NCBI GenBank assembly: GCA_017525905.1
Contig: JAFXSD010000024.1
Location: forward strand, 1-64,000
Origin: Elusimicrobiota bacterium
GTDB lineage: Bacteria; Elusimicrobiota; Endomicrobiia; Endomicrobiales; Endomicrobiaceae
Direction: 5' to 3'
Length of the DNA: 64,000 bases
Both the position numbers and the translations under genes were made by a program. Positions 1 through 2,733 of the stretch are shown here, in pieces (the first letter of the stretch is position 1; every line of letters starts with the position of its first letter). The notes below the pieces were generated by a model. That model was not told the origin of the DNA, did no database searches, and worked only from the letters and a program-made list of their open reading frames with translations.

Positions 1-399
1 CAAGAAAGTAAAAAAATATTTAAGTTAAGAAACAAATTAATGAACGGAATTTTAGAAAAAATTCCGGAAGTTGTAATAAACACTGATATAAAATATGCCG
101 TTCCGAGTGTTTTAAGTGTAAGTTTTAACTATATAGAAGGGGAATCTTTACTTTTAATGCTTGATATGGCAGGTATTGCTGCATCAGCAGGTTCTGCTTG
201 TGCAACGGGTTCTGCCGAACCGTCACATGTGTTATCTGCAATAGGTGCAAGTCCTTTGGCAGCACAGGGAACATTAAGGTTTTCTTTAGGCAGATACAAC
301 ACCGAAGAAGATATAGATTATGTGTTGGATGTGTTACCGAAACTTGTTGAAAGAGTAAGAAAAATGTCACCGGTGTGGAACAACAAAGTTGAGGAATAG
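1..399 (+). CDS. Cysteine desulfurase, NifS/IscS type (C-terminal part, 5' end outside window)
   Basis: This is the C-terminal third of a class I PLP-dependent cysteine desulfurase, the enzyme that takes sulfur from L-cysteine as an enzyme-bound persulfide for Fe-S cluster assembly. The frame is open from base 1, so the ATG at 40 is internal and the start lies upstream. The visible part has the catalytic-cysteine loop (SAGSACATGSAEPSHVL) and the usual C-terminal helices (LGRYNTEEDIDYV). A degenerate paralogue follows 51 bp downstream, then iscU and an Rrf2 regulator, so this is probably the active desulfurase of the cluster. The PLP lysine lies outside the window and cannot be checked. Confidence 0.92.
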   Translation, partial: QESKKIFKLRNKLMNGILEKIPEVVINTDIKYAVPSVLSVSFNYIEGESLLLMLDMAGIAASAGSACATGSAEPSHVLSAIGASPLAAQGTLRFSLGRYNTEEDIDYVLDVLPKLVERVRKMSPVWNNKVEE

Positions 400-450: not shown

Positions 451-1683
451 ATGAAACAAGTATATTTAGATAATCAATCAAATACAAGAATGGATGATAT
501 AGTTTTTGATGCTATGGTTCCGTATTTTAAACAATATTACGGAAACCCGCAAAGCATTTATTCTTTAGGACAAATTTCTAAAGATTCAATAGAAGAAGCA
601 AGAACTTCAGTTTCAAAATTAATAAATTCCAAGCCGGAAGAAATTATATTTACTTCATGCGGTTCGGAATCCAACAATTTGGCAATAAAAGGGTATGCAT
701 ACGGGAACAGTAAAAAAGGTAAACATATTATAGTTTCCGCAATAGAACATTTTTCAGTTTTAAATGCGGTAAAATCTTTGGAAAAAGACGGCTTTGAAGT
801 TACCTATGTTCCTGTAGATAACAAAGGATTTGTTGTACTGAATGAACTAAAAAAATCTATAAGACAGGATACAATTTTGGTATCAATACAATATGCAAAT
901 ACGGAAATAGGAACTGTTCAAAACATTGATGAAATATCAAAAACAGTTAAAGAAAAAAATATTGTGTTACATGTTGATGCGGTTGTCGCAGCGGGTGTTA
1001 TACCTATAGATGTTATTAAATCCAATATTGATATGCTTACAATTTCAAGTTCTGTAATTTACGGCCCTAAAGGTGCTGCTGCTCTTTATGTTAAAAAAGG
1101 GATATATTTAAAACCGCAAATAGACGGCGGAGTACAGGAATTTAACAAAAGAGCAGGAACGGAAAATGTTCCGGCAATTGTAGGTTTCGGTGTTGCTTGC
1201 AGCAGAGCATTAAGCCAAATGCAACAAAATTATGAAAAAATTATAAAGTTAAGAGATAAATTGATTAACGGATTACAAAAAAACATAGATTATATTTATC
1301 TTAACGGACCTACCAAAAACAGATTACCGACAAATGTAAATTTTTCCATAGAGTTTGTTGAAGGGGAATCACTTTTCCTTTTATTGGATGCTAAAGGTAT
1401 AATGGCTTCAAGCGGTTCCGCCTGTGCAAACAAATCTTTAAAAATATCGCATGTGTTAACGGCAATAAATGTTGATGTTGCGGTAGGACAGGGTTCGATA
1501 GTGTTTACGTTGTCAAAATATAATACGGAAGAAGAAATAGATTATGTTATAAACGAGTTTCCGACAATAGTTAAAAGGTTAAGAATGATGTCGCCGTTAT
1601 ATGACCATTTTAAATCTACCGGTGAAAGAATGAAAGCCGGTCCGGGAACAGACTATGAGCACCACCATCATCATGAAGAATAA
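451..1683 (+). CDS. Degenerate cysteine desulfurase paralogue lacking the PLP lysine
   Basis: A full-length (410 aa) NifS/IscS-family protein by overall sequence: SESNNLAIKG, IEHFSVL, ANTEIGTVQ, RAGTENVP and a retained catalytic-Cys loop (SSGSACANKS). The segment normally reading S-x-H-K-x-Y-G-P-K-G, whose Lys forms the Schiff base with PLP, reads SSSVIYGPKG here, so both the His and the Lys are replaced (Ser, Val). The Gln of the usual DAVQ motif is also changed (VDAVVAAG). The N-terminal DNAATT motif is degraded to DNQSNT. It is therefore unlikely to be a normal desulfurase. It could be a partner subunit of the adjacent active NifS or a sulfur carrier through its retained Cys. The C-terminus ends in a natural five-His cluster (YEHHHHHEE), possibly metal-binding. 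A good Shine-Dalgarno (TTGGAGGAAA) precedes ATG 451. Confidence 0.85.
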   Translation: MKQVYLDNQSNTRMDDIVFDAMVPYFKQYYGNPQSIYSLGQISKDSIEEARTSVSKLINSKPEEIIFTSCGSESNNLAIKGYAYGNSKKGKHIIVSAIEHFSVLNAVKSLEKDGFEVTYVPVDNKGFVVLNELKKSIRQDTILVSIQYANTEIGTVQNIDEISKTVKEKNIVLHVDAVVAAGVIPIDVIKSNIDMLTISSSVIYGPKGAAALYVKKGIYLKPQIDGGVQEFNKRAGTENVPAIVGFGVACSRALSQMQQNYEKIIKLRDKLINGLQKNIDYIYLNGPTKNRLPTNVNFSIEFVEGESLFLLLDAKGIMASSGSACANKSLKISHVLTAINVDVAVGQGSIVFTLSKYNTEEEIDYVINEFPTIVKRLRMMSPLYDHFKSTGERMKAGPGTDYEHHHHHEE

Positions 1684-2289: not shown

Positions 2290-2733
2290 ATGTTAATATC
2301 GACAAGAGGCAGATATGCCATTAGAGTAATAATAGATTTGGCTCAAAATTCCAACGGGAATTTTATACCTATGAAAGATGTTGCCAAAAGGCAGGAAATA
2401 TCATTAAAATATTTGGAAAAAATTTTGCCTATACTTACAAAACATAAAATTGTTGAAGGTGTTCACGGTAAAGGCGGCGGATACAAATTGGGTAAAAATA
2501 TAAACAAGTATAAAGTTATAGATATACTGAAACTTACCGAAGGAGACCTTGCACCTGTTACATGCTTAAAAAAAGGTGAACATTGCAAAAGAAAAGCACA
2601 ATGCAAAACCGTATTTATGTGGAACAAGTTTTATGACATCATAAACAAATTTTTCGGTTCTATAACTATAGATGATTTGTTAAACGATAACAAAAATTTC
2701 GATTTGTTCACAAATATTCAACAACTTTTATAG
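2290..2733 (+). CDS. Rrf2/IscR-family transcriptional regulator
   Basis: A 147-aa winged-helix repressor of the Rrf2 family, with the diagnostic N-terminus (MLISTRGRYAIRVIIDLA) and the wing GVHGKGGGYKLGK. Three cysteines in the linker (CLKKGEHC, then KRKAQC) match the spacing of the [2Fe-2S] ligands of IscR. It probably senses Fe-S status and regulates the upstream desulfurase-iscU genes; that role is inferred from context. In many genomes the regulator precedes the desulfurase, whereas here it follows iscU. A hairpin sits directly upstream of its ribosome-binding site. Confidence 0.9.
   Translation: MLISTRGRYAIRVIIDLAQNSNGNFIPMKDVAKRQEISLKYLEKILPILTKHKIVEGVHGKGGGYKLGKNINKYKVIDILKLTEGDLAPVTCLKKGEHCKRKAQCKTVFMWNKFYDIINKFFGSITIDDLLNDNKNFDLFTNIQQLL

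Follow-up and report, generated by a model that had tools for sequence, protein, structure and literature searches.

The IscS of Archaeoglobus fulgidus is reported to be inactive as a desulfurase and to supply a Cys ligand for the [2Fe-2S] cluster on IscU (PMC7585200; PMC5176006), and IscS1 of Methanosarcina acetivorans is likewise without the Schiff-base lysine (PMC7585200). Until now, lysine-less IscS has been a curiosity of A. fulgidus and the methanogens. We describe here a bacterial gene of this kind. The original prediction for it knew of no described role for such a protein paired with a desulfurase; the archaeal precedent, with its Cys ligand to the IscU cluster, supplies one. Like the bacterial protein, A. 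fulgidus IscS 2 (PDB 4eb5, 4eb7, 4hvk, 4r5f) has the IscS fold, and its losses match (Q to A176, H to N198, K to D199 and R to L347, with C321 kept); it works with IscU, as the bacterial protein probably does. It differs in having aspartate at the lysine site, where the bacterial proteins mostly have V or Q, in keeping the N155 equivalent and in being archaeal. E. coli IscS and human NFS1 share the fold, the mobile Cys loop and the probable partnership with IscU, but they carry the catalytic residues K206, H205, Q183, N155 and R354, all five of which the bacterial protein lacks. The MIS system (MisS/MisU; Garcia et al. 2022, as cited in PMC12442378 and PMC10653786) is similarly a two-gene, minimal cluster system of IscS-like and IscU-like proteins; MisS, however, is described as a cysteine desulfurase. 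We found no paper on a lysine-less IscS in Elusimicrobiota or Endomicrobia in the open-access literature.

The gene lies in a 64,000-nucleotide stretch of DNA (the window) that runs from the start of contig C83 of a metagenome-assembled genome (MAG) related to Candidatus Ruminimicrobiellum (rumen Endomicrobia, Elusimicrobiota). We call the lysine-less IscS-type gene and its protein K-less, and the lysine-bearing, canonical desulfurase paralogue K+. The window protein is about 45-47% identical both to the K+ paralogue and to A. fulgidus IscS. The features of the locus are collected in Table 1.

Table 1. Features of the K-less locus in the window.
Feature	Position	Strand	Remarks
Canonical K+ desulfurase, C-terminal 132 aa only	1..399	+	Truncated by contig start; 95% identical to complete copy on contig C7
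K-less IscS-type protein, 410 aa	451..1683	+	Type-I cysteine desulfurase fold; under NCBIfam NifS/IscS equivalog cut-offs
SSSV (S199-V202) replacing S-x-H-K	1045..1056	+	V202 = E. coli K206, S201 = H205
C325 codon, catalytic-loop cysteine	1423..1425	+	= E. coli C328, A. fulgidus C321
V351 codon	1501..1503	+	= E. coli R354; R354 lost in every K-less copy of the clade
Conserved tail SPLYxxFxxTGxRxxAGPGTDY plus His/acid-rich end	1591..1680	+	Absent from K+ paralogue
IscU scaffold, 125 aa	1740..2117	+	Above TIGR03419 NifU_clost cut-off; cluster Cys motifs CGD, GCGA and HCS kept
Rrf2-family regulator, IscR-like three-Cys stretch (CLKKGEHCKRKAQC)	2290..2733	+	Directly after iscU

The window thus reads K+ desulfurase (cut at base 1), K-less, iscU, rrf2. 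Because the contig starts inside the K+ gene, the lysine of the upstream desulfurase is invisible within the window. Contig C7 of the same MAG carries the complete order mnmA, rhodanese, K+, K-less, iscU; a congener (L045) has this order too, with rrf2 downstream. At another locus (L048), a gene for an Rrf2-family regulator stands between the K+ and K-less genes. The two K-less copies in the MAG (G000:C7 and G000:C83) are 95% identical, and since MAG contamination is 7.4%, the C7 copy of the locus is probably a second strain. The tandem of an active and an inactive desulfurase that had been predicted stands, with two corrections. In the complete tandem copies, on contig C7 and in congeners, the K+ paralogue is canonical, with H-K present; the window itself shows only its last 132 residues, and the tandem order is found only in the window's genus and a few others, the two genes lying apart in most genomes.

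We numbered residues by aligning the K-less protein to E. coli IscS (L251). This alignment bore out the prediction that SxHK had become SSSV with the active-site Cys kept (V202, S201, C325). It also revealed the loss of Q183 (V179) and N155 (T151) from the window protein, which keeps C328 (C325), H104 (H100), D180 (D176) and T243 (T237). We then compared 82 K-less with 167 K+ proteins, the groups being set by the lysine column and then by origin. K206 was found in none of the 82 distinct Elusimicrobiota orthologues, whose residue at this site is V in 50, Q in 23, A in four, T in two and M, S or I in one each. With a non-lysine residue in every orthologue, the sequencing error that the original prediction had named as a possible refutation is excluded, and with seven residue types at the site there is no conserved replacement catalytic residue. 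N155, H205 and R354 were likewise absent from all 82, and Q183 was present in one; each of these four residues was kept in at least 165 of the 167 lysine-bearing relatives from bacteria and archaea. C328, H104, D180, G325 and S326 were invariant in the K-less proteins, T243 was kept in 81 and T76 persisted as S or T. E. coli IscS loses its desulfurase activity with either K206A or Q183E, and it cannot do without C328 (PMC9978102). From the active-site losses and the inactivity of these E. coli variants, we infer that the K-less protein is not a cysteine desulfurase. It may still bind PLP or PMP, since H104, D180 and T243 are conserved, more than a pure scaffold would seem to need.

Matches to the K-less protein at E <= 1e-118 occurred in 90 of 341 genomes of the phylum Elusimicrobiota; the match in one of these (G338) bears the lysine, so the count of K-less genomes is slightly below 90, and incomplete genomes may conceal additional copies. 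The gene is under purifying selection: against ten relatives its dN/dS was 0.04-0.10, and that of the active K+ copy was 0.03-0.06. Reading frames are intact, and the gene is retained in strongly reduced genomes; the pseudogene pattern that had been proposed as a second refutation was looked for in the relatives and did not appear. The protein matches PF00266 (class-V aminotransferase fold) and scores 494.6 bits against TIGR03402, under the cut-off of 530.75, whereas the K+ paralogue scores 538.1, above it. An AlphaFold2 model built with 35 relatives had a mean pLDDT of 87.9, with values under 50 only at the Cys loop (323-329) and the tail end (403-410). Its TM scores (query) to IscS/NFS1 were 0.88-0.93, and its best PDB matches were NFS1, A. 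fulgidus IscS (4r5f, 4hvk, 4eb5) and E. coli IscS. We conclude that the K-less gene is real, conserved and probably misannotated as a desulfurase.

The K-less protein ends in a tail in which the original prediction saw a possible five-His metal site. The His run is indeed present (tail end EHHHHHEE; H404-H408, bases 1660-1674). The exact run is local, and what holds across the phylum is a tail of about 31 residues with a His/acid-rich end, often with Cys. We observed an AGPGTDY-like stretch in 66 of 78 tails and at least two His after tail position 20 in 61 of them. The K+ paralogue terminates about 10 residues past SP. The tail has been lost in several strongly reduced genomes, and A. fulgidus IscS does not have it, a difference that counts against reading the K-less protein as the same kind of IscU partner. 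A role for the tail in metal handling would be a guess. Outside the phylum, the IscUs of four loci (L051, L056, L062 and L068; Clostridia, Eggerthellaceae) have a His-rich end (HDH, HYEHHH) resembling the K-less tail.

Which protein does K-less work with? The original prediction placed its emphasis on the adjacent active desulfurase. The gene neighborhoods point elsewhere: taking same-strand genes within 700 bp downstream, iscU follows 69 of 79 assessable K-less genes in Elusimicrobiota versus 3 of 32 K+ genes, and K+ is mostly unlinked to K-less. One IscU was present in most of the 47 genomes searched, iscU being usually single-copy, and SufB/D was not found in 21 of 25 genomes of the phylum. 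On these grounds IscU, rather than the neighboring active desulfurase, appears to be the best-supported partner of K-less. The phylum's K-less-linked IscUs form one clade (support 99/94), and nearly all retain the cluster Cys motifs. Three observations run against IscU as the partner: for ten of the assessable K-less genes no iscU lies within 700 bp, iscU adjoins K+ instead of K-less in one genome (G051), and one SufB/D-like protein is present in the window's genus. Each of three outgroup genomes (G058, G336, G339) holds both a K+/IscU and a K-less/IscU pair.

Genomes with K-less nearly always contain a K+ gene as well. In about a dozen of 42 genomes, the K+ gene adjoins mnmA or is separated from it by no more than about 1.5 kb. 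The neighbors of K-less/iscU are MnmA, rhodanese and Rrf2 in the window's genus; in other genera they include a flavodiiron protein, desulfoferrodoxin, rubrerythrin, Fur, a thioredoxin-reductase-like protein, DsrE and TusA. One very reduced genome of the family (G316, loci L144 and L216; about 200 kb, 66% marker-complete) contains K-less, IscU and MnmA, and no lysine-bearing IscS was found in it.

Archaeal genomes contained two lysine-less types, A (A. fulgidus-like) and B, with iscU adjacent in every copy read. The type-B copies (L252-L261, from methanogen genomes of the class of G341) and the M. acetivorans IscS1 reported as lysine-less resemble K-less in having lost the lysine, kept the Cys and stayed beside iscU. 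Type B differs in its other changes (H104D, Q183H, K206T and T243L/V/I) and in retaining H205 and R354 along with C328. In one Methanosarcinaceae MAG (L220:2861-4195, minus strand), the IscU adjacent to the lysine-less gene is fused to a thioredoxin-reductase-like FAD/NAD domain. Among the best 30 matches in 299 sampled Bacillota genomes, we found one lysine-less copy (L292, G690:C28), which has A179, C201, Q202 and V351 and adjoins iscU. It falls inside the Elusimicrobiota K-less clade and groups with an Elusimicrobiota copy (L168), which suggests lateral transfer; other genomes of its class had either no close match or lysine-bearing ones. In free trees, the Elusimicrobiota clade, archaeal type A (with A. 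fulgidus IscS) and archaeal type B stood apart, each strongly supported. These trees suggest independent origins of the three types, although a single lysine-less clade was not rejected by the AU test (Elusimicrobiota plus A, p 0.19; all three, p 0.51). The kind of protein is known from archaea, and what is new is a phylum-wide bacterial branch of it, with one Bacillota copy. Also new are the conserved His/acid-rich tail and the coexistence with an active desulfurase often encoded beside mnmA.

We think it probable, while allowing considerable room for doubt, that the product of the K-less gene is an IscS dead as a desulfurase, that it works with IscU and that its C325 serves as a ligand or hand-off point during [2Fe-2S] assembly. 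A conserved, desulfurase-dead paralogue with its loop Cys and a role in sulfur or cluster handling, as originally predicted, is thus supported. By homology to A. fulgidus IscS, the protein would lack activity, dock IscU and ligate the cluster through its Cys. It retains the IscS fold, the contacts to the PLP ring and the mobile Cys loop, and not the residues that do the chemistry. Most likely it docks IscU as IscS does, and C325 would then be offered as an outer ligand, or as the point of persulfide hand-off, while the [2Fe-2S] cluster is built on IscU. The sulfur source might be free sulfide, which an anoxic gut should offer, or a persulfide formed at another site, with the active K+ paralogue as one candidate producer. 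When E. coli lacking iscS grows anaerobically, its IscU-dependent cluster assembly can draw on sulfide (PMC13015791). Sulfide as the source here is speculative, and on present data a persulfide delivered by K+ is just as possible. The active K+ paralogue, often beside mnmA, would serve mainly tRNA thiolation and other sulfur needs; the genome with MnmA and no K+ (G316) fits poorly with K+ as the sulfur supplier of MnmA, unless its assembly is incomplete.

Might the two paralogues instead form a heterodimer, with persulfide produced by the active K+ chain and the K-less chain carrying IscU and acting as acceptor or regulator? T243 of IscS contacts the PLP of the partner subunit, and its retention in all but one of the K-less proteins would fit such a pairing, though archaeal type B has lost it. 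The near-constant presence of K+ in K-less genomes and the tandem order in the window's genus fit as well. We nevertheless consider a heterodimer unlikely: in most genomes the two genes are unlinked, their products are only about 45% identical, and K-less occurs without K+ in G316, itself an incomplete genome. More doubtful is a PLP- or PMP-dependent enzyme that does without the Schiff-base lysine and has acquired a different reaction. Lysine-less PMP enzymes exist among fold-type-I enzymes. The residues for the PLP ring and phosphate are kept (H104, D180, T76 as S/T, and T243), and some PLP remains on the K206A variant of E. coli IscS (PMC9978102). Against a new enzyme stand the variety of residues at the lysine site, the loss of N155, Q183, H205 and R354, and the persistence of the gene beside iscU.

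Alternatively, oxygen stress could be the main setting in which K-less and IscU build or repair clusters, a part that SUF plays in other organisms. The neighbors of the pair in several genera fit this reading: a flavodiiron protein, desulfoferrodoxin, rubrerythrin, a regulator of the Fur family or a thioredoxin-reductase-like protein, with DsrE and TusA alongside in some. Those in the window's genus are different. Because the K-less-linked IscU is usually the only IscU, a role confined to stress is improbable, and we give this explanation little weight. The contamination of the MAG and its two strain-level copies of the locus could suggest a decaying pseudogene, or an error in sequencing or assembly. 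The relatives refute this almost beyond question, with the same losses in 82 distinct proteins across the phylum, intact frames, low dN/dS and retention in strongly reduced genomes.

The reading that we prefer, a desulfurase-dead partner of IscU, can be extended to a broader proposal that we advance very tentatively and think rather less likely to be right than wrong. The phylum's clusters would be built by IscU with a dedicated, non-catalytic IscS, the ancestral desulfurase having split in two, one protein releasing sulfur as an enzyme and the other providing the cluster with a ligand. The His-rich tail would deliver or hold metal, and assembly would be uncoupled from cysteine and capable of using sulfide.

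A phylum-wide branch under strong selection and linked to iscU suggests that cysteine donation to the scaffold can be retained without desulfurase chemistry. The K-less proteins are natural separation-of-function proteins with which to ask how IscS serves IscU other than as its sulfur supplier, and they are relevant to whether anaerobes feed the ISC system with sulfide. They also carry a warning, in that the automatic annotation "cysteine desulfurase" is probably wrong for K-less genes. Fe-S cluster building in these rumen Elusimicrobiota may depend on a non-enzyme partner of a kind so far described only in archaea.
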